Source: Verrucomicrobium sp. BvORR106 (GTDB lineage Bacteria > Verrucomicrobiota > Verrucomicrobiia > Verrucomicrobiales > Verrucomicrobiaceae). Taken from it: 33,547 nt of DNA. The first letter of the stretch is position 1. The number at the start of each line of letters is the position of its first letter. The DNA lies in NCBI RefSeq assembly GCF_000739655.1, contig NZ_BATR01000090.1, positions 1-33,547 on the forward strand, given 5' to 3'. Both the position numbers and the translations under genes were made by a program. The notes under the pieces were generated by a model that saw only the letters and a program-made list of their open reading frames with translations, ran no database searches and was not told the origin of the DNA. Positions 5,105 to 22,089 of this stretch are shown piece after piece.

Positions 5105-6330
5105 AGATTCTCCTGCTTGGGGCCGCCCGCCACCAGGTGCCCGCGATTGAAGCCGCCCTGCGTGAAGGGTGGGAGGTCTTCACCGCGGACAATGTTCCCG
5201 CGAACCCGGGCCACCGGCTGGCGACCCGGAGCTTTGACGTCAGCGCCGCAGATCCGGATGCCGTCACGCGACTGGCGGAGGAGCTTGGGGTGGATGGGGT
5301 GCTCGGCTGTGCCTCGGAGGTGTGCGCCCGCACGGCTGCGCAGGTGGCGGCGCGACTCGGGTTGCCGGGTTCACCTCCAGAGGCAGTCGAGACTCTTTCC
5401 TTCAAGGATGCCTTCCGGAAGTGCACGCAGTCGGCGGGTTTGCAAACGCTTGCCTGGAGGTGCTGGGGTCGGGACGAGGCAGAAATGGCGGAGGCCTGGG
5501 CGGGCCGGATATCAGCGGGGGTGGTGGTGAAGCCGGTGGACAGCAGCGGGGGGCGTGGGGTCACGGTTCAACCCGATCACTTTCGCGATGCCTTTGAGCG
5601 GGCCATGGCGGCCTCACGAGTGGGGCGCGTGGTGGTGGAGGAACGGGTAGTGCCGGTGGGCGGTCAGTTCGGGGGTGATGGGTGGATGGAGCAGGGCCGC
5701 TTGAAGTTTTTGCACTGCTTTGACAATGCCACGCTGCCGCCTCCGGATAATGGGGCTGCCATCCAGGAGACCTTTCCCTGCGGGCACGATGCGGGGTCGT
5801 TGGAGGTTATGAGGACCCATCTGGAAGCGTTGATGAAGGCGTGCGGTTACACCCGGGGGCCTTTCAATTTTGACGGTTGTTTCCTGAAGGACGGCCGTCC
5901 GTTTGTGTTTGAGATCGGCCCGCGCAACGGGGGCAACTTCATCCCCCACCAGATTCAGCAGCAGACGGGCGTGGATCTGACCACCGCGGCGGTCCGGTCG
6001 GCGGTGGACCTGGAGTTTGAGTTGGCAGTGCCTGTGCCTGGGCGGGGTGAGGGCGGGGAGCCACGTTTCCATGCGACCTGGGTGGTGCATGCCCGCCAGA
6101 CCGGCATCTTGAGGGAGGTCAAGCTGGCGCAAGAGCTGGCCCCGTATGTCCAGGAGTTGATTCCCTATGTCTCCCCCGGAGCGCCCGTGCGTCCCTTTGC
6201 CATGTCTGGCGATGCGCTGGGCATGCTTTTACTTCAGTTTCCCAATCGCGCAGAAATGCACGGGGTGATGGCGCGGATGCCCGCCTTGTGCCAGATACAT
6301 CTAGAACCTACCCCCTCTCATGAGCCATGA
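5101..6330 (+). CDS. ATP-grasp ligase
   Basis: The product is 409 residues from a GTG start at 5101, chosen because it overlaps the glycosyltransferase stop as GTGA and follows a purine-rich GGGAGGGG sequence. An N-terminal pre-ATP-grasp Rossmann-like part (about 1-100) begins KILLLGAARHQVPAIEAALR. The ATP-binding part follows, with K144 in VVVKPVDSSGGRGV (glycine-rich loop) and a metal-binding end containing D258 (GPFNFDGCF), E271 and N276 (FEIGPRNGGN). Such enzymes join a carboxylate, activated as acyl phosphate, to an amine or other nucleophile. Beside a sugar aminotransferase, a plausible reaction is acylation or aminoacylation of the new amino group, but this is inference. The next gene overlaps its stop by 4 bases. 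Confidence 0.85.
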   Translation: MKILLLGAARHQVPAIEAALREGWEVFTADNVPANPGHRLATRSFDVSAADPDAVTRLAEELGVDGVLGCASEVCARTAAQVAARLGLPGSPPEAVETLSFKDAFRKCTQSAGLQTLAWRCWGRDEAEMAEAWAGRISAGVVVKPVDSSGGRGVTVQPDHFRDAFERAMAASRVGRVVVEERVVPVGGQFGGDGWMEQGRLKFLHCFDNATLPPPDNGAAIQETFPCGHDAGSLEVMRTHLEALMKACGYTRGPFNFDGCFLKDGRPFVFEIGPRNGGNFIPHQIQQQTGVDLTTAAVRSAVDLEFELAVPVPGRGEGGEPRFHATWVVHARQTGILREVKLAQELAPYVQELIPYVSPGAPVRPFAMSGDALGMLLLQFPNRAEMHGVMARMPALCQIHLEPTPSHEP

Positions 6331-7109
6331 GTGAACTCCTCGCAGACTCCCTGGCGCATGCGACTCTGGATGGCACCTGGATGGGGAAGCCTGCCAGCGC
6401 CACGTTTGCCGCGCTGGATGCCACGCTGGAACTGCACGGCTACGCCTTTGCCTGCGCGATGGGCATGTGGGGCATGGACGGGTATGATGCCGAAGCCTAT
6501 GCCGCCGCCTGCCAGCCGTATGCGCGGCTGGTGCCGGTGGCGGGATTCAAGCCGGAGCGCTCGCAGACCTTGCGTGGGGAGCTCACGCGGCTGAGGGAGC
6601 TGGGCTACCGGGGCATCAAGCTGCACCCGCGCTTCTCCAGGCTGGATATTGCAGACCCCTTGATTGGGAAGACGATGGAGATCGCCGGGCAGCTTGGCCT
6701 GGTGGTCTTCTGGTGCACGTTGCTGCATACCACGATCGACGAGTGGCAGGAGGCCGATCCGCTTTTGACGCTCGTCCGGCAGTTGAAGGCCGCGCCCTCG
6801 GCCCGGGTGATCCTGCTGCACGGCGGGGATGTGGATCTCATGCGGTACATGCAACTGGTGCGGTTCAATGACCGGCTGCTGCTGGATCTCTCCCACACGA
6901 TTGCCAAGTATCCCGGGAGTTCGCTGGAGTTGGATATTCAGTATCTCTTCCGGCACTTTGACCAGCGCCTGTGTCTGGGGACTGACTGGCCGCAGTTTTC
7001 CCATGCACAACTCCGGGGGCTCTATGAGCGCTTCTCGGAGGGGTTGGAGGAAGGGAAGCGCGTGAATATCGCGCATGGGAATCTGGCACGCTTCTTGGGC
7101 GTAGGGTAA
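6327..7109 (+). CDS. Amidohydrolase_2-like TIM-barrel protein with non-standard metal motif
   Basis: The 260-residue protein carries family landmarks in order: GYRGIKLHPRFSRL (K98, H100), VILLHGGDVD (H165) and LCLGTDWPQF (D220), ending in the usual NLARFLG helix. These resemble metal-dependent hydrolases and decarboxylases of the amidohydrolase-2 family. The usual N-terminal HxH signature is absent, and only H11 in DSLAHATLDG is present. The usual His-x-Gly after the fourth strand is replaced by FWCTLLHTT. It may therefore use an altered metal site or be non-catalytic. Start ATG at 6327 overlaps the ATP-grasp stop (ATGA), tying it to the cassette. It could process or proofread the product of the ligase, but no function is assigned. 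Confidence 0.7.
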   Translation: MSELLADSLAHATLDGTWMGKPASATFAALDATLELHGYAFACAMGMWGMDGYDAEAYAAACQPYARLVPVAGFKPERSQTLRGELTRLRELGYRGIKLHPRFSRLDIADPLIGKTMEIAGQLGLVVFWCTLLHTTIDEWQEADPLLTLVRQLKAAPSARVILLHGGDVDLMRYMQLVRFNDRLLLDLSHTIAKYPGSSLELDIQYLFRHFDQRLCLGTDWPQFSHAQLRGLYERFSEGLEEGKRVNIAHGNLARFLGVG

Positions 7110-7158
7110 GTGACACAGGCGTCCCGCCTGTGGGTGCTACCGGCATCTTGCCGGTTGG
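7110..7158 (+). repeat. Triloop hairpin repeat pair, copy 1
   Basis: Two perfect 7-base stems with 3-base loops: ACAGGCG-TCC-CGCCTGT (7115-7131) and ACCGGCA-TCT-TGCCGGT (7139-7155). The leader GTGACAC is shared with copies at 17616 and 33390. Confidence 0.8.
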
Positions 7159-7210
7159 TTTGGTGGTGATTGGGGTTCGAGGTAATGGAGGAGAAATTGG
7201 GGTGAACTGA

Positions 7211-7336
7211 GCCGACCAAAGTCGGTACTCCAATCCTGCTGGCGGAATGGAGGGGGGAAGTTCCGCTCTTAGGCGGTGAAGCTGGTGTCTCCCGCGAAGT
7301 GGGTCAGTGTTGGAGTACCGACTTTAGTCGGCCGTA
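7211..7336. repeat. Inverted pair of CCGAC/GTCGG hairpin repeats
   Basis: GCCGACCAAAGTCGGTACTC continues as CAAT at 7211, and its inverse, GAGTACCGACTTTAGTCGGC, lies near 7313-7332. Between them is a partial module-Q-like word, CCGCTCTTAGGCGG (about 7263-7276). The design matches the P/Q repeats elsewhere in the window, but the hairpin sequence differs. Confidence 0.65.
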
Positions 7337-7421
7337 GCTTTGCTCTGCGCCAAGGGAAGCAGTTTCAGCATCGAACCCAAGCCGATCCCCCGGCTCATGT
7401 CTTCCAGTCTTCTGTCTCCCC

Positions 7422-8666
7422 TTACCGATCCGGAGACAACATCTCGAACCCGTCAAACCCGGCGGGCTCCCGATCCACGAGGCGACCTACCACCTCACCC
7501 GTGACCGGTGCCAGGCTCAAGCCCATCATGCCATGGCCGGTGGCGATGACGAGGTTGTCTGCAGCCTGGGTGCGGCCGAGATAGGGGAGGCCATCCGGCG
7601 GGCAGGGGCGGAAGCCGTACCAGGGGGCCACGCCTTCGAAGTGTTCGCGGCGGAACCTGGGGTAGTACTGGGGCACGGCTTTCAGGATGCCCTCGATGCG
7701 GCGGCGGGCCACGGTTTCATTCATGCCGGCGATCTCCATGGTGCCGCCGATGCGCAGGCTGCTGCCCATGGGGGTGGCGGCGACGCGGGCCTCGGTGAAG
7801 ATGGCGCAGATCTGCGGCAGTTCCACGGGGGCGGGAAGGGTGAGGCTGTAGCCCTTGCCCGCCTGCATGGAGAGGCGCAGGCCGAGGTCGTGCACAAGTC
7901 CTGGCGACCAGGCGCCGCTGGCGAGCACGAACTCGTCCCCGGCGATCTCGTCGCCGGTGGAGGTGAGGGCCGCGACCACCCGCTTGCCTGATTTCCTGAA
8001 ACCCGTCACTTCCACTTCATCCAGCACCTCGCCTCCCGCTGCCCGGATCAGTCTCAGCAGCGTGTTCACATACCGGTCCGGCTGGAGGTGGCAGTCTTGC
8101 GGAAAATACACGCTGCCGGCAATGTCCATGGTCACGGCGGGGTCCAGCTCGGCCGTGGCTCGGGCGTCCAGGATTTCGGCAGGGATACCCAGTGCGCGTG
8201 CTTTCTTCGCCGTCTGTGCCTCCTCGTCCAGACCGTGTTGCGTCTTGCAGAGCATCAGCAGGCCCTTTTTCACCAATCCAAATTCCTCTTTCTCCGCCAG
8301 GTCCGCATACAGCTTGCGGCTCGCGAGGCTCAGATCCCGCAGCAGCGGGGCACTACGCTCCACATGCGCTTTCGTGCTGGCCCGCCAGAACTTCAGACCC
8401 CAGGTGATCAGATCCCAGTCCAGACGTGGTTTGATGTAAAACGGCGACTCCGGGCTCAGCATCCACTTTAGCCCCATGGCCACCATGCCGGGTGCGGCCA
8501 GCGGGACAAAGTGGCTGGGCACCACCATCCCCGCATTCCCCAGGGAGGCCCCGCGACGCTGCGGATCCCGCTCGATCACCGTCACCCGGTGGCCGCGCTT
8601 CAGGCAGGCCAGAGCGGAGCTCAGGCCGATGACGCCGCCGCCGAGGATGACAATATGCCGTGACAT
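7422..8666 (-). CDS. FAD-dependent D-amino-acid dehydrogenase, probably D-hydroxyproline dehydrogenase
   Basis: The 414-residue protein belongs to the DAO/DadA flavoprotein family. The N-terminus is a dinucleotide-binding fold, HIVILGGGVIGLSSALA with an acidic strand end in VTVIERD. A DadA-like SLGNAGMVVPSHFVPLAAPG loop follows, and the closing FAD motif is NLVIATGHGMMGLSLAPVTG. Such enzymes oxidise D-amino acids to imino acids and pass electrons to the respiratory chain. The co-directional epimerase and DapA-family genes suggest the substrate is cis-4-hydroxy-D-proline, giving 1-pyrroline-4-hydroxy-2-carboxylate. The substrate is inferred from context, and D-alanine or D-proline remain possible. 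The start at 8666 gives MSRHIVIL directly before the fold. Upstream lies a long polypyrimidine leader on the coding strand with no Shine-Dalgarno sequence. Confidence 0.88.
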   Translation of the reverse strand: MSRHIVILGGGVIGLSSALACLKRGHRVTVIERDPQRRGASLGNAGMVVPSHFVPLAAPGMVAMGLKWMLSPESPFYIKPRLDWDLITWGLKFWRASTKAHVERSAPLLRDLSLASRKLYADLAEKEEFGLVKKGLLMLCKTQHGLDEEAQTAKKARALGIPAEILDARATAELDPAVTMDIAGSVYFPQDCHLQPDRYVNTLLRLIRAAGGEVLDEVEVTGFRKSGKRVVAALTSTGDEIAGDEFVLASGAWSPGLVHDLGLRLSMQAGKGYSLTLPAPVELPQICAIFTEARVAATPMGSSLRIGGTMEIAGMNETVARRRIEGILKAVPQYYPRFRREHFEGVAPWYGFRPCPPDGLPYLGRTQAADNLVIATGHGMMGLSLAPVTGEVVGRLVDREPAGFDGFEMLSPDR

Positions 8667-8715
8667 GGGAGGGGGAGGGAAGAGGGGGAAGGGATAAGGG
8701 AAGAGGGAAGAGGGA
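8667..8715 (+). repeat. Polypurine G-rich tract with G-quadruplex pattern
   Basis: The plus strand reads almost only G and A, in runs such as GGGAGGGGGAGGGAAGAGGG. It fulfils the usual four-run quadruplex pattern (runs of at least 3 G with loops of 1-7). It touches the start codon of the minus-strand dehydrogenase, so the G-rich strand is the template strand and the mRNA leader is pyrimidine-rich. Confidence 0.6.
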
Positions 8716-8719
8716 ATAA

Positions 8720-10201
8720 CTAACTGATTCCCGAGGTCCACTTGCGGAATGGTTTGGCCAGCATCAGCAGCACCAAGGCACCGAGGCCGGAGGTGATGGC
8801 CACCTGCAGGAACACTCGTGGCATGGCATCGGGGGACTCGTGGTCTGTCGCTGCACCCGCGAGCAGTCCGGCCAGAAGATTGCCCGTGGCCGAGGAAAGG
8901 AACCAGATACCCATGCACTGCGTGGTGAGACGGCTGGGGGCCAGCTTGGTGACGAAGCTCAATCCCACCGGGCTCAGGGTCAGCTCCCCCCAGGTAAGCA
9001 GGAGATATGTGCCCAGCAGCCAGACGGGCAGCACCTTCCCCTGGGCCAGCGCCAGCTTGGCGGCAAATTGCAACACCACAAAGCCCAGCGCCAGCAGGAG
9101 CAGCGCTGAGGCAAACTTGGCTGCCACCGAGGGGAACCATCCGCGACAGGCCAGGGCCAGCCACAGCCAGGAAAATGCCGGGGCAAAGAGGATGACGAAA
9201 ACGGGATTGATGGACTGGAACCAGCCCGTGGGGATCTCACTGCCAAACATCTGCCGGTCCGTGAAGCGCTCTGCAAAGAGGTTCATGGAAGAACCCGCCT
9301 GCTCAAACCCGGACCAGAACAGGGCGGAGGCGACAAAGAGGATGGCCAGCACACCGAGGCGCTTTTTCTCCTCCCCAGTGAGCCCGCCAAAGGCAAAAGC
9401 CCAGCCAAACCAGAGCACCGCCATGCCGACCAGCACCAGGCTGGTGTACTTGGCCACCAGCAGGGGATTGATGACCAGCACGCCGCTCAGCGCCAGCCCG
9501 GCCACCAGGATCACCACCCCAATCGCCGCTCCCACCGCGGTCCAGTGTCGTCTCGGTGTAGAGCTGGGATGAGCCGGTCGCACGCCTGCATCGCCCATGT
9601 GGTGCTGGGTCAGCGCATACTGGATCACCCCGGCGATCATGCCCACACCAGCGGCACCGAACCCCCAGTGCCAGTCCCATTTCTCCCCCAGCCAGCCGCA
9701 GATCATGGGACCGAGGAAACCACCCACATTCACTCCCATGTAGAAGAGCGTGAATCCCGCGTCTCGCCGCGCGCCACCTTCAGGGTAGAGCTGGCCCACT
9801 AGCGAGCTCGCACAGGGCTTGAGCAAGGCGGTGCCCATCACCACCAGCAGCAGCCCGGTGAAAAAGGTCGTGTTCCCCGGTATCGCTAGGCTCAGGTGGC
9901 CCATCGCAATGATGATGCCGCCGTACAGCACCGCCTGCCGCGGAGAGATCAACCGGTCCGCCACCCAGCCACCGGGCAGCGCCACCAGATACACCCCACA
10001 AACATAAAGTCCGTAGATCGCCGCCGCCATCTTGTCCGGCAACCCCATGCCTCCCTCCACAGGCAGCGCCGTCATGTAAAGGATCAGCAGCGCCCGCATC
10101 CCGTAGTAGCTCATGCGCTCCCACATTTCCGTGAAGAAGAGCGTGTAGATGCCGCGGGGGTGGCGGAGCGAAGCGGAGCTGGCGGGTGGCGTGGCTGTCA
10201 T
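8720..10201 (-). CDS. POT-family proton-coupled di/tripeptide transporter
   Basis: The 493-residue polytopic inner-membrane protein has the diagnostic POT/PTR2 proton motif ExxERxxxYG at residues 25-34 (FFTEMWERMSYYGMRALL). The second family signature is also recognisable, as FTLFYMGVNVGGFLGPMICG. Many hydrophobic helices follow, with a late GELTLSPVGLSFVTKLAP segment. POT proteins import di- and tripeptides with protons. Lying between the secreted dipeptidyl-peptidase and the D-amino-acid dehydrogenase, it would carry Xaa-Pro or Xaa-Hyp dipeptides into the cell, by inference from context. The gap to the dehydrogenase gene is 53 bases. Confidence 0.92.
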   Translation of the reverse strand: MTATPPASSASLRHPRGIYTLFFTEMWERMSYYGMRALLILYMTALPVEGGMGLPDKMAAAIYGLYVCGVYLVALPGGWVADRLISPRQAVLYGGIIIAMGHLSLAIPGNTTFFTGLLLVVMGTALLKPCASSLVGQLYPEGGARRDAGFTLFYMGVNVGGFLGPMICGWLGEKWDWHWGFGAAGVGMIAGVIQYALTQHHMGDAGVRPAHPSSTPRRHWTAVGAAIGVVILVAGLALSGVLVINPLLVAKYTSLVLVGMAVLWFGWAFAFGGLTGEEKKRLGVLAILFVASALFWSGFEQAGSSMNLFAERFTDRQMFGSEIPTGWFQSINPVFVILFAPAFSWLWLALACRGWFPSVAAKFASALLLLALGFVVLQFAAKLALAQGKVLPVWLLGTYLLLTWGELTLSPVGLSFVTKLAPSRLTTQCMGIWFLSSATGNLLAGLLAGAATDHESPDAMPRVFLQVAITSGLGALVLLMLAKPFRKWTSGIS

Positions 10202-10407: not shown

Positions 10408-12735
10408 CTAATTTTTCCCCGCTCCCAGCCAGCGTGCAAAAAACTCCGCCCTCCTCCGGCTCGCATACGGTGTTTCTGCCGCGCCATGTCCGGTGTTGGT
10501 CATGATGAGCAGCTCGTAGTCCTTGTCCGCCCGTTGCAGGGCGTTTGCCACCTGCAGGGTGGAGGCCGGGTCCACGTTCTTGTCCAGCTCACCCACCACC
10601 AGCATGAGGTGCCCCTGCAGCTTGCCGGCGTCTTCCACATTGGAGTTGAGTTTGTAGCTGTCATCCATCGGCCAGCCCAGCCACTGCTCGTTCCACCAGA
10701 TCTTGTCCATGCGGTTGTCGTGGCAGCCGCAGTCCGCCACGGCCGCTTTGTAGAAGTCGTGATGATCCAGCAGGGCTCTCGTGGCGCTCTGCCCCCCGGC
10801 AGAGCCGCCATAGATGCCCACGCGGTTCACATCCATCCAGGGCCTGGTGGCGGCCGCCGCCTTGATCCAGGCGATGCGGTCCGGAAAGCCGGCGTCTTTG
10901 AGGTTCTTCCAGCTCACGTCGTGGAAGACCTTGCCACGATGGTTCGTGCCCATGCCATCTGCCTGCACGATCACAAAACCCATCTGCGCCAGGGTTTGCT
11001 GCCGGAGCAGGCGACCAAATTCCTTGGGGGCAAAGCTGCCGTGCGGCCCGGCATAGATCTCCTCCAGCACGGGCGAGGGCTTTTTGGCATCCATGCCCGC
11101 TGGCTTGATGATGATGCCGTGGATGTCCGTCTTGCCATCGCGACCCTTGGCCACAAAACGCTCCGGCATGGACCAGCCCGTGGCCAGCAGGGCGGAGATG
11201 TCCGCGCGCTCCAGTTCCTTGATCAACGTGCCGTCGGCACTGCGACGCAGCTCCGTGACCGGAGGCTGGTCGGCGCGTGACCAGGTATCGATGAAACAAG
11301 CCCGGTCGGGGGAGAATGTGATCTTGTGCGTGCCGTCGCCCTCCGTCAGCCTCACAAAGCCTGTGCCGTCCAGATTCACCCGGCAGAGGTGGAGGTGGTA
11401 GGGATCCTCCTCCGGCCGCACGCCTCCGGCCAGGAACCACACCTGGCGTTTCACGGCATCCACGTGCTCCACCTTCCGCACCACCCAGGAGCCTTTGGTG
11501 ATCTGGAGCTTGGGCTGACCGGTCGCCACGTCGTAGAGCCAGAGGTGGCACCAGCCATCGCGCTCACTGGTCCAGAGGAGTTCGCCCGTGCCCTCCAGCC
11601 ACTCGCGGTAGGTCTTGTTCGTGTAGTCGATGAACGTCTTGCTCGTCTCCTCCACCACCGTGCGCACGGCGCCCGTGGCGGCATTCACCGCGAGGATGCG
11701 GTAGAGCTGGTGGCCGCGCTGGTTGTAGTTGAAGTAGAATTCATCGCCCTTCTCCGACCAGCGCACATCCAGATCCGGGCCCTCCGCAAAGGGATTGGGA
11801 AACAACGCGTTGTCCGGCAGCATCGCCCGCCGCTCCGCCACCTGTACCAGCACCGGCCGCGGCCGGGGCAGTTCATCGCCCGGTTTCAGATAGTTCAGTG
11901 TCTGCACCCTGGGTTGCAACTGGTCGGCCGGGGAGGACTGCACGATGCTAATCTTGCGTCCCGGGATCTCGTGCTGGCGCATGAAGACCACGTGCCGGGA
12001 GTCAGGGGCCCACTCCACCGGACCGCTGCAGCGGGTCTTGTCCTCTGCGGGCAGCTCCAGCTTCGAGGCCTCGTTGTTCTCCAGATTCACGAGGTAGGGC
12101 TGGTCATCGCGGAACTCCAGGCGCCATTTCTTGTCGGGGGAAAGACGGTTGTGCTCCTGCTTCTCCGTGCGCGGATCTTTGGGCGGTTCGCCCGTGCCAT
12201 CGATTGCCACCTCCAGCGTGCCCTCCCGGGCCTCGAACGCGCGCAACGGCTTGCCCAGCGCATTCACCACCACCCAGACGTGGCCGGCAAAGGTCTCCAG
12301 TTCCCGGTCATCGCCCGCCTGGATGCGTCCGTAGCTGCGCCGCTGCCCGTCTAAGTCGCTCCAGAAGAGTTCCACAGGTTCCTTCGTGTGATTCAGCACG
12401 CGGAGCTGGCTTTTGGGGCCAGTGCTGCGGGTGCCTCGGATCGCCGGCAGGTCCACCTCGCGACCATTCGTTGGCAAGCCCAGCTCTTCCACTGTCGCGG
12501 CCCGTTTCACGGTCCCGGTGATGGAATCCACCAGCGCGTACTCCCGGTTCTTCGGCCCCGTGTTCACGCTGTACCAGAACTTGCGCCCGTCCTCCAGCCA
12601 GTGCGGGCTCACCTCCGCGCGGAAGATCGTGTTTTCCGTGCGAGAGGCCAGGGCGCGTGCTTCAGGGTAATCCAGCGGGGCAGCGAGGGCCAGCACGGGC
12701 AGTGCGAGTGAGACGAGGAGGGGCGTGTAGTACAT
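10408..12735 (-). CDS. Secreted S9 dipeptidyl-peptidase IV-like serine protease with inserted VHL-like beta domain
   Basis: The 775-residue protein begins MYYTPLLVSLALPVLALAAP, an export signal. An 8-blade DPP-IV-type propeller (to about residue 540) includes LLWTSERDGWCHLWLYD. The C-terminal alpha/beta-hydrolase has nucleophile S645 in YGGSAGGQS, D718 in GELDKNVDP and H750 in TNTGHGAAE, in canonical order. Family enzymes remove N-terminal dipeptides, often Xaa-Pro, outside the cytoplasm. The nucleophile elbow is GGSAGG, not the GWSYGG of classical DPP-IV, and I cannot find the double-Glu motif that anchors the peptide N-terminus, so exact specificity is open. Residues about 108-176 are extra to the family and resemble the pVHL beta domain (separate entry). 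Neighbours are a peptide transporter and hydroxyproline genes. Confidence 0.88.
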   Translation of the reverse strand: MYYTPLLVSLALPVLALAAPLDYPEARALASRTENTIFRAEVSPHWLEDGRKFWYSVNTGPKNREYALVDSITGTVKRAATVEELGLPTNGREVDLPAIRGTRSTGPKSQLRVLNHTKEPVELFWSDLDGQRRSYGRIQAGDDRELETFAGHVWVVVNALGKPLRAFEAREGTLEVAIDGTGEPPKDPRTEKQEHNRLSPDKKWRLEFRDDQPYLVNLENNEASKLELPAEDKTRCSGPVEWAPDSRHVVFMRQHEIPGRKISIVQSSPADQLQPRVQTLNYLKPGDELPRPRPVLVQVAERRAMLPDNALFPNPFAEGPDLDVRWSEKGDEFYFNYNQRGHQLYRILAVNAATGAVRTVVEETSKTFIDYTNKTYREWLEGTGELLWTSERDGWCHLWLYDVATGQPKLQITKGSWVVRKVEHVDAVKRQVWFLAGGVRPEEDPYHLHLCRVNLDGTGFVRLTEGDGTHKITFSPDRACFIDTWSRADQPPVTELRRSADGTLIKELERADISALLATGWSMPERFVAKGRDGKTDIHGIIIKPAGMDAKKPSPVLEEIYAGPHGSFAPKEFGRLLRQQTLAQMGFVIVQADGMGTNHRGKVFHDVSWKNLKDAGFPDRIAWIKAAAATRPWMDVNRVGIYGGSAGGQSATRALLDHHDFYKAAVADCGCHDNRMDKIWWNEQWLGWPMDDSYKLNSNVEDAGKLQGHLMLVVGELDKNVDPASTLQVANALQRADKDYELLIMTNTGHGAAETPYASRRRAEFFARWLGAGKN
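12208..12414 (-). other. VHL-like beta domain inside the S9 peptidase (residues about 108-176)
   Basis: Residues 115-154 align without gaps to human pVHL 78-117 with a constant offset of 37. Identities include N78, W88, D92, G93, Y98, G104, R107, G114, H115 and W117. Of the five residues known to line the 4-hydroxyproline pocket of pVHL (W88, Y98, S111, H115, W117), the counterparts are W125, Y135, T148, H152 and W154. Four are identical and one is a conservative Ser-to-Thr change that keeps the hydroxyl. Key segments are FWSDLDGQRRSYGRI and TFAGHVWVV. That this domain binds hydroxyproline is an inference from residue identity and gene context. Confidence 0.8.
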
Positions 12736-12862: not shown

Positions 12863-13801
12863 TCACCTGATACCCCAGCAGAAGGGGTCGGTGGCGTCGA
12901 GTAAAAGCGTGGCTTCCGCGCACACATGCGCCGTGCCGCTGATCCGGGGCAGGAGGGTGCCGGCCTCACGGTCCAGCCAGGTGTAGCAGGCGGTGAAGGT
13001 GCTGCCGATGATGCTTTCCTGAACCCAGGGGATGTCTGGACCCAACAGCCCCCGCGTGGCCAGGCTGGCCAGCTTCGCGCTGGTGCCGGTACCACAGGGG
13101 GAGCGATCATACGCTCCGCCGGGACAGAGCACGAAGTTCCGCGAATGCCCGCCCGACTGCGGCGGGCCGAAGAGCTCCACGTGATCCACCTCCGGGTGCC
13201 CTTGTTCATTCACCGCCTGGCGGATGTTTCCTGAAACTTCGAGCAGGCGCGGGATGTTGGCGCGGGAAAGTTCCTCCCCATGCCGGGTGACGAGGAAAAA
13301 CCAGTTCCCGCCCCAGGCCACATCCCCGGTCACCTCTCCGAGACCGGGCACCTGCACGGTGACATCCTGCGCCTTCAGAAACGCAGGCACATTGGTGAGG
13401 CTGGCCTTGTTGCCGCCCTCCCAGTGCGCCTGCACCACCCCGGCGGGGGTCTCGATGCTGAGCGGGCCTGGCTGGATGCGACCCTGATGGCCAAGTGTGA
13501 TGACCACCCCCAGGGTGCCGTGGCCGCACATGCCCAGATACCCCACGTTGTTGAAGAAAATCACTCCGGCTGTGCACGTGGGATCGCTGGGGGGCACCAG
13601 CAGTGCGCCCACGATCACATCATTGCCGCGGGGTTCATTCACCACCGCGCGACGGAAGGCATCCTGCGTCTCGCGAAACACCACGAGCTGTTCCGCCACA
13701 GTGCCGCCACCCAGATCCGGACCGCCGCTGATGACGGTGCGCGTCGGCTCGCCTCCCGTGTGGGAGTCGATGACCTGCACGCGTTGAAGCGGTACATTCA
13801 T
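12863..13801 (-). CDS. 4-hydroxyproline 2-epimerase (proline racemase family)
   Basis: The 312-residue protein carries both catalytic cysteines of the proline racemase family: C92 in GMCGHGTLG and C236 in DRSPCGTGTSA. A Thr at the second site would mark trans-3-hydroxyproline dehydratase, so an epimerase or racemase is indicated. The N-terminus VIDSHTGGEPTRTVISGGP and the absence of the longer C-terminal parts of true proline racemases favour 4-hydroxyproline epimerase, which converts trans-4-hydroxy-L-proline to cis-4-hydroxy-D-proline in the cytoplasm. Its start overlaps the Xaa-Pro aminopeptidase stop by 4 bases (ATGA), linking release of the imino acid to its catabolism. The gene symbol varies between organisms and is left blank. 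Confidence 0.88.
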   Translation of the reverse strand: MNVPLQRVQVIDSHTGGEPTRTVISGGPDLGGGTVAEQLVVFRETQDAFRRAVVNEPRGNDVIVGALLVPPSDPTCTAGVIFFNNVGYLGMCGHGTLGVVITLGHQGRIQPGPLSIETPAGVVQAHWEGGNKASLTNVPAFLKAQDVTVQVPGLGEVTGDVAWGGNWFFLVTRHGEELSRANIPRLLEVSGNIRQAVNEQGHPEVDHVELFGPPQSGGHSRNFVLCPGGAYDRSPCGTGTSAKLASLATRGLLGPDIPWVQESIIGSTFTACYTWLDREAGTLLPRISGTAHVCAEATLLLDATDPFCWGIR

Positions 13802-15111
13802 CGAGGGCGTTTCCCTCCCTTGGCATTCCGGTTCATGAGCTCCTCGATCGCCGCTGCCTCCATCGGGATGTCATGCATCAGGCTCTGGGCGCCGTCTTCG
13901 GTGATGAGCAGCGTGTCCTCCAGGCGCACCGCCAGGCCTTCCTCCTTGATGTAGATCGCCGGTTCGCAGGTCATCACCCAGCCGGGTTGCAGCGGGGCAT
14001 CCACCGGCTGCACATCGTGCACATCCAGGCCGATCGGATGGCCCACGCCGTGCATGAAGTATTTCATGAGCGCCTTCTTCTCCGGACCCTGGGCACGCAC
14101 CTGTTTCAGGGTGATGAGCTTCAGGTCCACCAGTTCCTTCTGCACCGTCTCCTGAGCAAAGGCCCGCCAGTCCTTGGCCAGCAGCCCCGGTTTCAAGGCG
14201 GCGGCGCAGGTGGTGTAAGCGCGGAACACGGCGTCATACACCTGCCGCTGGCGTGGGGTGAACCGCCCGCTCACGGGGATGGTCCGCGTCATGTCGGAGC
14301 AATAGTTGCCGTACGAGGAGCCAACGTCCAGCAGCAGCATCTCGCCCTCCTGGCACACGGCGCTGTTCTGGATGTAGTGCAGCCCCAGCGCATTCGCCCC
14401 GGAGGCGATGATCGGGCTGTAGGCAAACTTTGCGCCCTGGGAGATGAACTCATGGGCAAACTCCGCCTCCACCTGGTTCTCCGTCACGCCGGGTTTCACA
14501 AAGCGGGCCACACGTGCGAACCCGTCCCGCGTGATCGTGCAGGCGTTCCGGATCAGATCCACCTCGGTGGCGGACTTCACGGGGCGCAACTGGTGCAGCA
14601 GCCGCGCCAGCCGGTGGCAGGTGTGGAGCGGGTAGCGTTCCCGCGTCTCTTTGACAAACCGTGCCTCCCGCGTCTCCACCACCACCTGGGCACGGGGATG
14701 TTCGTTGGCATTCAAGTACACGCCCTCCGCCTCACACATGAGGGCGTGAAAAATGGCAGGGAAAGCCCCCAGCCACTCCACCCGGGCGATGCCGCTGATC
14801 TTGGTCGCCTTCTCCCTGCTGAGCTTTGCGCCCTCCCAGATCTGCACGTGCTCCGTGGGCTCTCGCAGAAAGAGGATCTCGCGGTTCTTCGCCTCATGGG
14901 AACCGGGAAACAACACGAGGAGGCTCTCCTCCTGCTCCACACCGGTGAGGTAAAAGAGATCTGCCCCCGGATGCAACACCAGCGAGCCATCCGCATTGGT
15001 CGGCAGCACATCATTGTTGTTCACTACCGCCAGGCAGTTGGACTGCATCAGCGCCGAGAGACGGGCGCGGTTCTCAACAAACAAACCAGAATCAATCGGC
15101 GAGTGCTTCAT
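13798..15111 (-). CDS. pepP: Xaa-Pro aminopeptidase (M24B)
   Basis: At 437 residues it is close to E. coli PepP. The C-terminal pita-bread fold shows all five metal ligands: D262 (LLLDVGSSYG), D273 (CSDMTRT), H358 (HGVGHPIGLDVHD), E383 (CEPAIYI) and E398 (VRLEDTLLI), plus the conserved H245 in GLHYIQN. The N-terminal aminopeptidase-P domain includes FYLTGVEQEESLLVLFPG. It binds two metal ions, usually Mn, and removes an N-terminal residue before proline, or before hydroxyproline in some family members. No signal peptide is seen, so it is probably cytoplasmic, acting on imported peptides. A clear Shine-Dalgarno run (AAGGAAGGGA) lies about 8 bases upstream. The gene is coupled to the epimerase downstream. 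Confidence 0.93.
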   Translation of the reverse strand: MKHSPIDSGLFVENRARLSALMQSNCLAVVNNNDVLPTNADGSLVLHPGADLFYLTGVEQEESLLVLFPGSHEAKNREILFLREPTEHVQIWEGAKLSREKATKISGIARVEWLGAFPAIFHALMCEAEGVYLNANEHPRAQVVVETREARFVKETRERYPLHTCHRLARLLHQLRPVKSATEVDLIRNACTITRDGFARVARFVKPGVTENQVEAEFAHEFISQGAKFAYSPIIASGANALGLHYIQNSAVCQEGEMLLLDVGSSYGNYCSDMTRTIPVSGRFTPRQRQVYDAVFRAYTTCAAALKPGLLAKDWRAFAQETVQKELVDLKLITLKQVRAQGPEKKALMKYFMHGVGHPIGLDVHDVQPVDAPLQPGWVMTCEPAIYIKEEGLAVRLEDTLLITEDGAQSLMHDIPMEAAAIEELMNRNAKGGKRPR

Positions 15112-15144: not shown

Positions 15145-16053
15145 TCATGCCACCGTCGGTGCGCCCGCGATGCCCTCGTGAATGACCTTGAGCACAGCCT
15201 CCCGCTCTGCGCCGCTCAGTGGCAGGCGCGGTGCGCGCGTCCACTCCTTGCCCAGGCCGCATTCCTGCACGCAGAGTTTGATGTACTGCACAAACTTGAT
15301 GTGCACATCCAGGTGCAGCAGCGGGGTGAACCACCGGTAGATCGCCACGGCCTCCTGCCAGCGGCCAGCCTGCATGAGGTCCCAGAGATGTTGATTCTGT
15401 TTGGGGAAGGCGATCCCCGTGCCCGCCACCCAGCCGTCGATGCCTAGAACCGCGGACTCCAGTGCGAGGTCATCCACCCCGGTGAAGATGGCGTAGCGGT
15501 CGCCCACGGTGTTGCGCAGGTCCGTGATGCGGCGCGTGTTTCCGGAGCTCTCCTTCAGCGCCACGAAGTTCTTCGTCTCCGCCAGTGCGGCGAACATCTC
15601 CGGCGTGATGTCATTTCCGTAGCTGATCGGGTTGTTGTAGATCATGATGGGCAGCCCGGTGGTGCCCGCCACGTGGCGGAAGTGCGCTAGCGTCTCCTCT
15701 GGATCCGGCGTCTTATAGCACATGGCCGGCATGAGCATGAAGCCATCCACCCCGGCGGCCTCGCAATCTTGCACATAGGTGGCAGCTTCTGCCGTGCTCG
15801 TCTCCGCCACGCCGGTGACCACGGGGATGCGTCCCTTGACGGCGTGCACCATTTCCTTCATCACCAGACGCTTCTCGGCGGCGGAGAGCATCTGGTTTTC
15901 CCCCAGGGAGCCCAGGAAGATCAGGCCGCGGATGCCGCTCTGGATCAGGACTTCCGCATGGGCGGCGGTCGCGTCCAGGTCGAGGGAGCCGTCGCGGTGC
16001 ATCTGGGTGGTGATGGCCGGAAAGACGCCGGTCCAAGGGTGGGTGGTGCTCAT
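15145..16053 (-). CDS. DapA/NAL-family aldolase or deaminase, probably 1-pyrroline-4-hydroxy-2-carboxylate deaminase
   Basis: The 302-residue (beta/alpha)8 protein has Schiff-base lysine K167 in VALKESSG and the proton-relay tyrosine Y139 in IMIYNNP. The first-loop motif is GSLGENQML instead of the GTTGE of true dihydrodipicolinate synthase, so it is a paralogue with another substrate. In bacterial hydroxyproline catabolism, a DapA-family enzyme deaminates and dehydrates the imine made by the D-hydroxyproline dehydrogenase, giving alpha-ketoglutarate semialdehyde. Position 33 bases upstream of pepP and the epimerase supports that role, but the sequence alone does not exclude other keto-acid lyases. 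The start at 16053 (MSTTHPWTGVFPAITT) follows a GGAGG sequence with a rather short spacer. It is the first gene of the six co-directional genes. Confidence 0.82.
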   Translation of the reverse strand: MSTTHPWTGVFPAITTQMHRDGSLDLDATAAHAEVLIQSGIRGLIFLGSLGENQMLSAAEKRLVMKEMVHAVKGRIPVVTGVAETSTAEAATYVQDCEAAGVDGFMLMPAMCYKTPDPEETLAHFRHVAGTTGLPIMIYNNPISYGNDITPEMFAALAETKNFVALKESSGNTRRITDLRNTVGDRYAIFTGVDDLALESAVLGIDGWVAGTGIAFPKQNQHLWDLMQAGRWQEAVAIYRWFTPLLHLDVHIKFVQYIKLCVQECGLGKEWTRAPRLPLSGAEREAVLKVIHEGIAGAPTVA

Positions 16054-16174
16054 CGTCCTCCACGCTAGCCACTTCTGTGGCCGGGATCTTGTCTGAATTC
16101 CCTGTCCAAAGTGGGATTTTTTCACAATCACTTCGCCGGATGCGGTCATAGACTTTGGAACCGACCCCTTTTCC
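16054..16174. promoter_or_regulatory. Divergent promoter region between the DapA-family gene and serine dehydratase
   Basis: These 121 bases separate two divergent starts and must hold promoters for both. A run GATTTTTTCACAATC (about 16116-16130) stands out in the GC-rich surroundings. It shares the TTTTTCACAA core with the palindrome upstream of nuoD (30035-30052). No confident -35/-10 pair can be named. Confidence 0.4.
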
Positions 16175-17554
<1,380 letters not shown>

Positions 17555-17910: not shown

Positions 17911-20900
17911 TCAACTCCCGCCGCCATTCACCGTTACTTTCATGAACCGCAACCCACCGGCCAGCGGGATCTTGTACTCATGCACGCCTCCCGTTCCCGT
18001 ATTGGAAACAGGCATCCAGGAATCCACCGCCAGCGTCGCGCTAGCCTGGGCTCCATAGGTCAATCCGGCGGCCACTCCAGCCGCAGGCGGTGTGAACCGG
18101 ATCACCAGGTATTCGCCTTCCACCACCGGCTCCGGGAGCTTGGCTGCTCCGTTGGAAACGTTGCCTGACTTTGGATCCAGATCGAAGGCAAACTCCATCA
18201 GGTTGGCCAGGCCGTCCTTGTCAAAATCCGCCAGATCCGCGGCATCGCCGGAGTTGTTGGCGGTGTTGAAGTGCTGGTAGCGCCATCCCTGCTGCGCGGT
18301 CACACCCGTGCCAGCCAACTCCACGAGGAACGGGCTTTCATCGGTGTCATTGCTGGTGATCTGCAGTATGGTGGTGCGTGTGCCCAGAGTGGCCGGAGTA
18401 AACGTGACCGTGACCACGGTGGATTGCACGCCCGTCAAGCTCGCGGCGGGAGTCGTCGTGATCACGAATTCGCTCTGCTGGCCGCCCGTGGTGGTGGCGC
18501 TGACATTGAGCGTGCCGCCGATGGTGTTGCGCAGGGTGAACGACCGCGACACGGCTGCGTTCTGCGCCACCAGACCGAAGTTGTAGAACGCGCTCTCCAC
18601 CTGCAGGTCGGCCCCGCCTGGTGCCTCGACCGCCAGTTCCGGGGCGCTGGAGTCGTACGCCTGCACATACTCCACGAGACCGCTGCTGCCGTTGTAGCGT
18701 CCACCCACCACCCGGGCCCTGGCGCGGATCAAGCCGGTGGTGGGCATGGTGGTACCCGTTATTTCCCATTCTCCATTGGCCGCCCGGCTGCCCTGGCCCA
18801 GTCGTGTCCATGTCTGGCCTGAGTCACCTGAGGCATCAAAGGTGACCGAATCCGCCTCCGGTGCCCCGCCGCCGCGCTTCCAGCGGATGGCGTTCTGGCT
18901 GGTGCGGTGCAGATGGTTGGTGGGGGAGTTGGTGACGAACAAGGCCAGACGTTGAGCGGGAAGTCCGCCGTAGTTGGTGAAGGGGCCTGCGGCGAGCGCT
19001 TTGCCGGACGATAACAGGCAGAGGTGCTCGACATAACCCGTCCCGGTTCCTACGCTCATTTGGAATGCAGCGTCTTCGGCTCCGTTAAATTGCAGGCGGC
19101 GCAGTCTGGAGCCACCGGGCGTTGCGTAGCTTTCGGGATTCGCCCAGTTGAAGGGGGCGTGGCCGTTCAGGACTGACAATACTGCGCCGTCGGCTTGCAA
19201 CACCGCGGGAGCCATTCCAGCACCTCCGCTGTGCGTGTACTCTGCCACTGCGCCGTCCGCCGACCAGCGCATCACGTTTCGTTCGCCTCCTCCTCCGGCA
19301 ATCACTTTTCCGTTCGGAAGCATGCCAACTCCACCCACCAGAAACTTTGCGTCGGCTGTCTGGGCAATCATTCCGATGAGGACCCCATTTTCGGCGAACC
19401 GGAAAGCGTGAGGGCGGGCCATGATCAGTCCAGGAGTGCCCGTGGGATAGGCGTAGTACATCCTCCCCGCTATTACCAACGTGTTGTCTGGGGCGACCCC
19501 GATGGTGTTGATTTCTCCAGCGAAGGTCACGGGGCGTCCTTCCCGATTGAAGAGGAATGTCGTGTCGTCTGCACCATCAGGCAGGAGTCGACGAACACCC
19601 AGTTCATTGGCACCCCCTACGAGAATCCTACCATCCGGGAGGACGCGCAGGACATTCACAGTTTTCGTGATGGTGGGTGCATTGAAGGTGAAATCTACTG
19701 AGCCATTCGGCAGGAGGCGCACCAGCTTGGGTCGGGTGGCTCCATTGAAAGTATCAAAGATGCCCCCCACGAGAATCTTGCCATCGTCGAGCACTGCCAC
19801 ACAGTACACACCGTTCACGTTGGGGCCGGTGCCTGTGTCAAAGGTCGGGTCGACATTGCCCGCAGCGTCGATACGGAGAAGACGGCGAGCCGAACTCACG
19901 TTGTTGTCACCCCCGATGAGAATCTTGCCATCCGGCTGTTCCGCCATGGCATGCACCGTGATATCGGGAGGGGGCACGAAGTTGCGGTCCAGTTGGCCCG
20001 GATTGAGCAGCACCAACACGATGTCGTTGCCGGTGCCCCCGTCGTACCGGATTTGTAGTTTCACCGGACTCGAGCCGTAAGTGACACTGTAGGTGCCTTC
20101 AATGATGCTGCGATCCGGCAGGCCTGAGAACTGCCCCGTCACCAGGCTGGATGAGGTGTTGTTTACCAGCACCAACTCGGTGCTGGCATTTGCATTCAGA
20201 TCCAGAATGATCGTGCCTAGGACATGTCCCGTGGCGTCGAAACCCTCGGATTGAACAGCGCCGCTCGTCGGATCAGTGAAAGTGCGATTCCACGTGCTGG
20301 CGGTGGCGCTGCCCGTGAGGGCGATGTCGAAGGATGATTCGTCCGCGTCATTGCTGGCAATGTGAAGTGCGGCGCTGTAGTTCCCAACGCTGGCGCGTTG
20401 GAACTTTACCAAGAACGTGGTGGCCTCCCCAAAGCCCAGTGCTGCGGCGGGCGGGGCTATGACTTGAAAGGCACTGGCTTGGGAACCTGTGATGGACGTG
20501 TTGACTCCTGTGAGCGTGCCGGGCCCCGTGTTGACGATGGTGAAGCTTCGCGTCGTGGCGGTACCGGGAGTGCCGTCTGTGAAACTTACCGTCGAGGCAT
20601 TGTCCGCGAGATTGCTGCCCTGTTGACTCACCGCGATTTCTGGGGAGGGAGTTCCCAAGGGTAGCGTCTGCACATCGTGATGACCGGCCCAGGCAGCACG
20701 CGCTTGAATCGCACCATTGCCAGTGGGGATGATGCCTGCCCATTCCCAGTAGCCCGATCCGTAGGTCGGGAACACAGTAGAGGTCACCGTGCCCTGGGCA
20801 TTGAGGAAATCAAATGCCACACGTGATGGGGCACCACTGGCGCCCGTGCGAGTCCAGCGCACTTTGCCAGCTTGTGGAATGGTCAGTTGTCGCGTGCCTG

Positions 20901-22089
20901 CGTCATTGAGCCGTCTCTGCACGCGTTCAGGGAACTGCCCGGCCACCACCAACGTCCCATCGTGATGAAGCGCCATGGCGGAGACGTTTTGACCTGTATT
21001 CCCAACAAAGGTGGTGTCGCGTGTGCCGTCACTGTTGAAGCGCAGCAAGTTCCCCGGCCAAGCCGCATCGGTTGGCAGGGTGCCAGGGAGGGAAAGCACG
21101 TATTTGCCATCGCTCTGGAGCGCGGCTCTCAAAATGTAGTATGGGGAGCTAACAACCGGCAGGCTTGTGAAACCGGTGTCCCGAGCCCCATTGGTGAGGA
21201 GGCGTGTGACCTGGACGTAGGAGGTCTCGCCCTCATACCTCATGACGCCCACGGCAATCAATTTGCCATCGGATTGGACCAAGATGTCCTGGATCTCGTT
21301 GTACGGATGAATTTCGAGCACCGGGGTGAATGCGGCATCGATCGAGCCATCAGCGTTGAGTCGGCTGATGTTGGGGCCGGCACCATAAGTGGATCCGGCA
21401 TAAAATGACTCGAAGCTGCCTGCGACGAGAATCTTGCCATCTGGTTGTAGAGCGAGGGACTTGATGGTGCCCCCATCAAAGAAGTAGTCCCGATCAAAGC
21501 TCGTATCGAAAGTCCCGTTGGCATTCAGCCGGCGTAGGTAGGCTCTGCTGAAAGAGCTGTACTGCTCCACCTCACTGACGAGAATTTTTTTATCCGGACT
21601 CAACAGGATCGATACGTGACGTGTGTTTCCCGACTCCCAAAGGCCGCGGAGGATGGGGGCCTGGAAAGTAGTGTCGAGTCTCCCATCAGTGAAATATCGG
21701 ACGACTGTGGGGCGGGGAGTTTCAGACGTCGAGGTCGACAGGATGCCTGCCGCCAGGATCTTGCCGTCACTCTGCACTGCCAGAGAGCTGACTTCGGCTC
21801 CCGGGTAAGTCTCGGGCTGGAAGGTGATATCCGGCGTGCCGTCCGCATTCAACCGAAACAGCCCGTGGCGAACTCGACCACTGACCAGGAATGATTTTCC
21901 GGCCAGGACAACCTTCCTATCGGGCTGGACGGCGATAACTGTCGGAGCCTGATCAATGGTGAGTCCGGAGCCAAAGCTGGTGTCCAAATCTGCTGGCGCC
22001 GCCATCGAAGCCGCGCACCAGGCGCAGACGATGGTGAAGGCAGCAAGTAGAGTTAGACGGCGGGCGACAGAGGGGGAGATGGATTGCAT
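17911..22089 (-). CDS. Large secreted delta-60-repeat protein with choice-of-anchor-D domains
   Basis: The 1392-residue protein has a long N-terminal signal (to about residue 31, ending CAASMAAP). About 15 delta-60-type units are seen, marked by LQPDGKILVAGSF and RLNADGSIDAAF-like words, in two blocks (about 35-395 and 698-1050). Each block is followed by a beta-rich segment with an xxRWxRxG start (about 408-470 and 1068-1145) and an ASPM-SPD-2-Hydin/choice-of-anchor-D domain (about 480-595 and 1148-1262, each with a SNDxDES word). A linker at 600-697 contains RYDGGTGNDIVLVLLN. The C-terminus has DFDKDGLANLMEF, a calcium-binding-like Asp motif, and probably a surface-sorting tail. Such proteins are large surface or secreted structures of unknown role. 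No catalytic motif is seen. Confidence 0.88.
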   Translation of the reverse strand: MQSISPSVARRLTLLAAFTIVCAWCAASMAAPADLDTSFGSGLTIDQAPTVIAVQPDRKVVLAGKSFLVSGRVRHGLFRLNADGTPDITFQPETYPGAEVSSLAVQSDGKILAAGILSTSTSETPRPTVVRYFTDGRLDTTFQAPILRGLWESGNTRHVSILLSPDKKILVSEVEQYSSFSRAYLRRLNANGTFDTSFDRDYFFDGGTIKSLALQPDGKILVAGSFESFYAGSTYGAGPNISRLNADGSIDAAFTPVLEIHPYNEIQDILVQSDGKLIAVGVMRYEGETSYVQVTRLLTNGARDTGFTSLPVVSSPYYILRAALQSDGKYVLSLPGTLPTDAAWPGNLLRFNSDGTRDTTFVGNTGQNVSAMALHHDGTLVVAGQFPERVQRRLNDAGTRQLTIPQAGKVRWTRTGASGAPSRVAFDFLNAQGTVTSTVFPTYGSGYWEWAGIIPTGNGAIQARAAWAGHHDVQTLPLGTPSPEIAVSQQGSNLADNASTVSFTDGTPGTATTRSFTIVNTGPGTLTGVNTSITGSQASAFQVIAPPAAALGFGEATTFLVKFQRASVGNYSAALHIASNDADESSFDIALTGSATASTWNRTFTDPTSGAVQSEGFDATGHVLGTIILDLNANASTELVLVNNTSSSLVTGQFSGLPDRSIIEGTYSVTYGSSPVKLQIRYDGGTGNDIVLVLLNPGQLDRNFVPPPDITVHAMAEQPDGKILIGGDNNVSSARRLLRIDAAGNVDPTFDTGTGPNVNGVYCVAVLDDGKILVGGIFDTFNGATRPKLVRLLPNGSVDFTFNAPTITKTVNVLRVLPDGRILVGGANELGVRRLLPDGADDTTFLFNREGRPVTFAGEINTIGVAPDNTLVIAGRMYYAYPTGTPGLIMARPHAFRFAENGVLIGMIAQTADAKFLVGGVGMLPNGKVIAGGGGERNVMRWSADGAVAEYTHSGGAGMAPAVLQADGAVLSVLNGHAPFNWANPESYATPGGSRLRRLQFNGAEDAAFQMSVGTGTGYVEHLCLLSSGKALAAGPFTNYGGLPAQRLALFVTNSPTNHLHRTSQNAIRWKRGGGAPEADSVTFDASGDSGQTWTRLGQGSRAANGEWEITGTTMPTTGLIRARARVVGGRYNGSSGLVEYVQAYDSSAPELAVEAPGGADLQVESAFYNFGLVAQNAAVSRSFTLRNTIGGTLNVSATTTGGQQSEFVITTTPAASLTGVQSTVVTVTFTPATLGTRTTILQITSNDTDESPFLVELAGTGVTAQQGWRYQHFNTANNSGDAADLADFDKDGLANLMEFAFDLDPKSGNVSNGAAKLPEPVVEGEYLVIRFTPPAAGVAAGLTYGAQASATLAVDSWMPVSNTGTGGVHEYKIPLAGGLRFMKVTVNGGGS

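Follow-up and report, generated by a model that had tools for sequence, protein, structure and literature searches.

A VHL beta domain with a conserved hydroxyproline-type pocket in a probably secreted S9 peptidase of Verrucomicrobium sp. BvORR106

Introduction

In human pVHL (PF01847), the substrate receptor of the CRL2-VHL ubiquitin ligase, we take W88, Y98, S111, H115 and W117 to be the pocket for hydroxyproline (Hyp), and N67 and R69 to be the contacts with the flanking peptide. The subject of this study is a gene for an S9/DPPIV-type peptidase with a VHL domain (S9-VHL) in a 33,547-nucleotide stretch of Verrucomicrobium sp. BvORR106 (RefSeq assembly GCF_000739655.1, contig NZ_BATR01000090.1, positions 1 to 33,547, forward strand), called the window at its full length. 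The domain resembles human pVHL in its predicted beta-sandwich and in its pocket, where W, Y, H and W are identical and Ser is replaced by Thr; it differs in its host, a bacterial peptidase that is probably secreted, and in the flanking peptide contacts. The host resembles the S9B dipeptidyl peptidases IV (P. gingivalis DPP4, 5olj; P. mexicana DPP IV, 5yp4) in its DPPIV_N propeller, S9 catalytic domain and Ser-Asp-His triad; unlike them, it also carries a VHL domain, close to the N-terminal portion of the propeller.

Bacterial VHL domains are already known: they match the Pfam model, and a paper describes a stand-alone VHL protein of Litorilituus sediminis that shares with S9-VHL a bacterial VHL beta domain and predicted secretion, but has no peptidase, the accessible part of the text discussing tumour suppression and not Hyp catabolism (PMC9002001). 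The gene cluster around S9-VHL recalls the layout of the Colwellia collagen-utilisation cluster, with S9-VHL standing where Colwellia has an M9 collagenase; the main text of that paper nowhere contains the term 'vhl' (PMC7883544). Among the matches listed from the open-licence PMC literature, no publication dealt with a VHL-S9 peptidase or with bacterial VHL as a Hyp reader.

Results

A VHL beta domain within an S9 peptidase

The gene and its parts are as follows.

10408..12735, minus strand: S9/DPPIV-type peptidase with VHL domain, 775 amino acids (open reading frame and Pfam)
12679..12735, minus strand: signal-peptide-like N-terminus, residues 1-19 (hydrophobic run ending ALAA)
12190..12441, minus strand: VHL beta domain as modelled, residues 99-182 (Pfam, conservation, AlphaFold2 model and profile)
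12259-12396, minus strand: stretch matched by Pfam VHL, residues 114-159
12274..12363, minus strand: pocket positions W125 (12361-12363), Y135 (12331-12333), T148 (12292-12294), H152 (12280-12282) and W154 (12274-12276) (conservation in 78 rows; coordinates computed from the open reading frame)
11260..12018, minus strand: DPPIV N-terminal beta-propeller region, residues 240-492 (PF00930, 137.5 bits)
10423..11004, minus strand: Peptidase S9 catalytic domain, residues 578-771 (PF00326, 158.6 bits)

The initial annotation had placed a VHL-like domain at 12208-12414 (residues 108-176). PF01847 scored 26.2 bits on residues 114-159 (gathering cut-off 21, E 8.3e-6), the single VHL match in the 8.69-Mb genome at E up to 1. 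Relatives were collected by scanning GTDB genome contigs, the best 80 of at least 590 giving 80 loci (numbered with L below), and the domain was found in 77/80 (cut off at the contig end in L029; missing in L074, L081 and also in a second S9 copy of L061, 3302-5776). A profile built from 78 homologous domains reached pVHL among PDB sequences at E ~2e-11, with no gap in the pocket region; of the 25 PDB sequences at E up to 1, 24 were pVHL and one was fibronectin (E 0.003). The AlphaFold2 model of the isolated domain (84 residues, 78 rows; predicted local distance difference test score, pLDDT, 88) matched pVHL chains in every row listed, namely the best 50 from Foldseek and the best 50 from VIA. 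The best VIA match was 8zv8_C (pVHL 63-154, Z 13.5, root-mean-square deviation (rmsd) 1.3 Å, 82 residues), with Z 12.9 against 1lm8 (pVHL plus HIF peptide) and 13.1 against 4awj (capped Hyp), 1.6 Å over 83 residues. The gap-free correspondence at a constant offset of 37 that had been claimed for residues around the pocket holds in both the model superposition and the profile alignment: residues 1-2 of the model (99-100 of the protein) pair with pVHL 62-63, the gap-free run extends beyond the pocket, and in the predicted structure, superposed over 82-83 residues, the pocket lies in register at the level of the backbone. The pVHL alpha domain (Elongin C box) was not found after the bacterial beta domain; structural matches stop at pVHL 154, and the domain that Pfam finds next is the propeller of the peptidase. 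The modest single-sequence Pfam score could suggest a chance or convergent similarity in a region that is no VHL domain. We rejected that reading as very improbable against the profile E-value, the Z-score of 13.5 over 82 residues and the presence of the domain in nearly all of the loci. We conclude that the region is a true VHL beta domain, with a predicted fold.

The initial annotation called the domain inserted. The three S9 rows without it (L074, L081 and the second copy of L061) join at the same alignment point, which fits that description; gain and loss across the family are not distinguishable from the alignment. At L096 (434-2128), the VHL domain stands instead at the C-terminus of an S9/DPPIV peptidase whose N-terminus lies outside the locus, possibly an independent fusion.

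The peptidase belongs to the S9/DPPIV type by its DPPIV_N and Peptidase_S9 domains with the Ser-Asp-His triad. The enzyme looks active, as predicted from Ser645, Asp718 and His750, which are present in 65/65 aligned rows. Its full-length AlphaFold2 model (pLDDT 89.3) has as best VIA match the DPP4 structure 5olj (Z 35.1, rmsd 6.2, 606 aligned). The signal-peptide-like N-terminus suggests that the protein is probably secreted; pLDDT there is below 50 at residues 1-4 and 13-20 of the full model. DPPIV-type S9 enzymes hold the substrate N-terminus with a Glu-Glu motif, and the 11 rows, of 14, that have letters around residues 216-251 showed none, a comparison by alignment and not by structure. 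'Dipeptidyl-peptidase' is a family label here and not an assigned cleavage specificity. On a tree of the S9 part, the rows nearest the window protein are Verrucomicrobiota.

The pocket is retained by S9 peptidases although the fold does not require it

Four of the five pocket residues proposed in the initial annotation are identical to their pVHL counterparts (W125 to W88, Y135 to Y98, H152 to H115 and W154 to W117), and T148 takes the place of S111. W125, Y135 and H152 were invariant in 78/78 rows and W154 was Trp in 77/78, while position 148 was Thr in 72/78 and Ser in 6/78. All five positions fall within the seven lowest-entropy columns of the 71 covering residues 102-172, the other two being N115 and G151 (hypergeometric p 1.6e-6, with seven picked as the cut after inspection).

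VHL domains in the genomes sampled were borne by S9 peptidases, by a putative metallopeptidase with the motifs HEFAH...YWAE, by sulfatases, SASA esterases and a kinase, or stood alone. With a tally profile that was built from S9 domains and could favour S9, the full pocket was counted in 112/116 S9 domains, 7/10 of the putative metallopeptidases, 3/3 stand-alone proteins, 0/10 sulfatases and 3/14 others, the last group including five repeats of one protein (L110). Sulfatase-borne domains had Ala for H115 in 8/10. Near-duplicates had been collapsed, partners grouped and L115 counted as S9 on its DPPIV_N match; with near-duplicates kept and L115 outside S9, the full pocket was present in 117/121 S9 domains and 14/40 others. 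Four rows were left out of the tally: the AraC-type L161, L162 and L166, whose matches do not reach the last three positions, and the 85-residue fragment L020. The sulfatase group was sorted by hand, Pfam finding a sulfatase domain in 10/10, and some of its VHL domains are below the Pfam VHL cut-off or without a Pfam VHL match (L159, L160).

These counts bear on an alternative in which VHL is a structural or oligomerisation module, its conserved residues serving to stabilise the fold or a contact surface with the propeller and not to bind Hyp. As such a module would, the domain occupies a constant place in the S9 alignment; N115 (pVHL N78) is likewise invariant, as a structural residue would be, and many family members lie away from Hyp genes. 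However, the VHL fold tolerates loss of the pocket, because the sulfatase and other fusions match the profile without H115, Y98 or S111, and these fusions weaken the idea that the pocket residues are only structural. S9 copies lacking the domain exist (the three rows named above), and the association with Hyp genes described below would be left unexplained. We consider the structural alternative rather unlikely. S9 peptidases retain the pocket, though the fold does not require it, and from pocket conservation and gene context the VHL domain most likely binds 4-hydroxyproline in peptides derived from hydroxylated proteins.

Other proteins bearing VHL domains

The putative secreted metallopeptidase family comprises L124, L117, L142, L141, L116, L134, L152, L132, L137 and L031 (11790-13514). 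Its members carry HEFAH or HEFGH and YWAE-type motifs (EYFAE in L031), with the VHL domain at the C-terminus, or at the N-terminus in L031. The assignment as metallopeptidases is tentative, drawn from the HExxH motif and from one Pfam match each in L142 and L137 to zincin-type families, both under the cut-off. Immediately upstream of the epimerase and S9-VHL genes at L013 are two sulfatases (5534-9132) whose VHL domains do not have the full pocket. The five VHL-like repeats of L110 (1-1818) occur in one protein, none with the full pocket, and the protein kinase, at L156 (2933-4654), has MORN repeats besides its VHL domain. The AraC-type regulators (L161, 4554-5759; L162, 722-1984; L166, 14011-15258) are encoded near Hyp-catabolism genes and have a weakly VHL-like C-terminus (E 0.0025-0.016); Pfam VHL gave no match on two of them at E up to 5. 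At L027 and L042, from metagenome-assembled genomes labelled Klebsiella pneumoniae and a proteobacterium, the gene groups on the S9 tree with that of L031 (Verrucomicrobia). These are perhaps mislabelled bins, though transfer of this one gene would also fit.

Gene neighbourhood

S9-VHL lies in an array of genes on the minus strand, which are, in order with S9-VHL fourth:

15145..16479, minus strand: DHDPS-type enzyme (PF00701, 196.7 bits; best NCBIfam model dapA, below cut-off)
13798..15111, minus strand: Xaa-Pro aminopeptidase, M24 with AMP_N (Pfam; best NCBIfam model PRK10879, below cut-off)
12863..13801, minus strand: 4-hydroxyproline epimerase, proline racemase family (PF05544, 323 bits)
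8720..10201, minus strand: POT-family oligopeptide:H+ symporter (PF00854, 219 bits; TIGR00924, 380 bits, above its cut-off of 130)
7422..9164, minus strand: DAO-family D-amino-acid dehydrogenase, proposed D-Hyp dehydrogenase (PF01266, 226.7 bits; best NCBIfam model D-amino acid dehydrogenase, below cut-off)

Two of the open frames probably begin upstream of the actual genes: the DHDPS-type gene probably starts near 16030, because its domain begins at residue 150 of the frame, and the DAO gene near 8660, because its match begins near residue 170. The permease excepted, NCBIfam matches of the cluster genes stayed below the model cut-offs; for the epimerase, the NCBIfam 4-Hyp epimerase model was the best at 378 bits, below its equivalog cut-off of 450. 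Both active-site Cys expected of 4-Hyp epimerases by the two-Cys rule are present (MCGHG and SPCGTG), and the epimerase, DAO and DHDPS families are three of the four superfamilies in the published 4-Hyp pathway (PMC4113996). By analogy with the same pathway, the DHDPS-type enzyme may act in Hyp breakdown. The array is an apparent operon for Hyp peptides. The epimerase, the D-amino-acid dehydrogenase and the DapA-family enzyme had been named as neighbours in the initial annotation, and their families are borne out by Pfam and by the best NCBIfam models; the Xaa-Pro aminopeptidase and the POT permease had been missed.

Elsewhere in the window (17911-22089), an open reading frame of 1392 residues combines DUF5122 propeller repeats with Cep192_D4/ASH-type domains, which are known from centrosome and cilium proteins.

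Association with epimerase genes

An epimerase-family gene was present in the fetched flank of 21/80 homologues, 15 of these 21 also having a DAO or DHDPS gene; contig ends truncate many of the 80 loci. On the S9-part tree, whose 86 rows are the window protein, the 80 loci, a second copy from one of them and four additional loci, 24 tips were linked to an epimerase, 37 were unlinked (two of them, the second copy of L061 and L081, without VHL) and 25 were not classable. Linkage requires at least 8 state changes on this tree, a quick one with 22/83 inner branches drawn open. The main clade has 27 rows; the linked tips beyond it (L049, labelled Armatimonadetes, L053, L080, L181 and L182) have differing gene orders. 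Conversely, an S9 relative was found beside the epimerase in 0/28 loci from VHL-negative genomes (phmmer, E up to 1e-10, some loci being cut by contig ends), sampled as 20 of the 33 available in the window's phylum and 8 of the 34 in the phylum of genome G406 (Planctomycetota, going by the label of L044). Among epimerase loci from VHL-positive genomes, 3/10 had an S9 relative, all three VHL-bearing (L181-L183).

Genome-wide, the comparison used the Pro_racemase family, which also takes in enzymes other than 4-Hyp epimerase, and its p-values are optimistic, since genomes and rows are related and genome size was ignored. The 387 genomes of the window's phylum include 21 with VHL above the cut-off, 40 with Pro_racemase and 7 with both; Pro_racemase thus occurs in 7/21 VHL genomes vs 33/366 others (one-sided Fisher p 0.003), and 4 of the 7 double-positive genomes have both genes within ~3 kb. 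In the phylum of G406 (274 genomes; VHL 37, Pro_racemase 47, both 13), the family was present in 13/37 VHL genomes vs 34/237 others (p 0.004) and, for hand-sorted S9-VHL genomes alone, in 11/25 vs 36/249 (p 0.0009). The control family PF00221 showed no excess in that phylum (20/37 vs 160/237, p 0.14). VHL and the epimerase family co-occur genome-wide in two phyla. The expected co-occurrence with Hyp genes is seen between neighbouring genes in some of the family and also at the level of genomes; many holders are without such a gene.

Discussion

We lean, with some reserve, towards reading S9-VHL as a secreted S9/DPPIV-type serine peptidase in which the VHL beta domain is an accessory Hyp-reading module for substrate recognition or docking. 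After export, the VHL domain would catch Hyp-bearing stretches and keep the chain near the S9 chamber. The substrate might be collagen, or plant or algal Hyp-rich glycoproteins, and the present data favour neither. Released di- and tripeptides would be imported via the POT permease and trimmed by the Xaa-Pro aminopeptidase, which may help to free Hyp; the putative epimerase, D-Hyp dehydrogenase and DHDPS-type deaminase would then pass Hyp towards alpha-ketoglutarate semialdehyde.

Several observations weigh against this reading. In the pocket, position 148 is mostly Thr and not Ser, position 147 (pVHL H110) is His in 67/78 rows but Glu in the window domain, and the flanking contacts N67 and R69 of pVHL are not kept. 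In gene context, only 5/39 classed tips outside the main clade are epimerase-linked, and two of these loci, L181 and L182, came into the set because their genes had already been seen close together; 7/10 epimerase loci from VHL-positive genomes have no adjoining S9 relative; VHL and Pro_racemase genes are never on one contig in the phylum of G406; and the metallopeptidase-VHL fusions are mostly in genomes without the Pro_racemase family, which is present in 1/9. Where S9-VHL is unlinked, 22/50 genomes have no Pro_racemase-family gene and 28/50 have the family elsewhere. The optimistic p-values count on the same side.

Some of these points would suit a pVHL-type pocket made for another ligand, such as proline, Hyp in glycosylated form, or some other residue that is hydroxylated or small and polar: the Thr at position 148, the variable position 147, the altered flanking contacts and the 22 holder genomes without Pro_racemase. 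That sulfatases, SASA esterases and a kinase also bear VHL domains likewise suggests that these bacteria may use the fold for several ligands. Yet the five-residue pocket is complete in nearly all S9 domains (the 112/116 above), and it is with the Hyp-epimerase family that the genes are associated. We judge another ligand to be improbable. The observation made in the initial annotation is confirmed, and its interpretation, a VHL domain that docks hydroxylated peptides onto a protease, is partly supported.

A broader proposal concerns the origin of the pocket. The VHL Hyp pocket might predate animal oxygen sensing and work in bacteria on two unrelated secreted peptidase types, S9 and the HEFAH putative metallopeptidase, targeting hydroxylated matrix or wall proteins, so that eukaryotic VHL would have taken over an older Hyp reader; we offer this tentatively, as something to be doubted more than believed. 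VHL orthologues are reported in no ctenophore and, among sponges, in only a few demosponges (PMC5800844); that distribution fits a patchy history of VHL but has no bearing on a bacterial origin.

If the domain binds Hyp, it would be a hydroxyproline reader outside ubiquitin ligases, fused directly to a protease so that a single natural chain would both 'recognise and degrade', and would offer a concrete clue to the origin of the VHL fold and pocket. It would also provide Hyp-affinity modules for proteomics. For soil and water bacteria, it would mean a route to the use of hydroxylated proteins.

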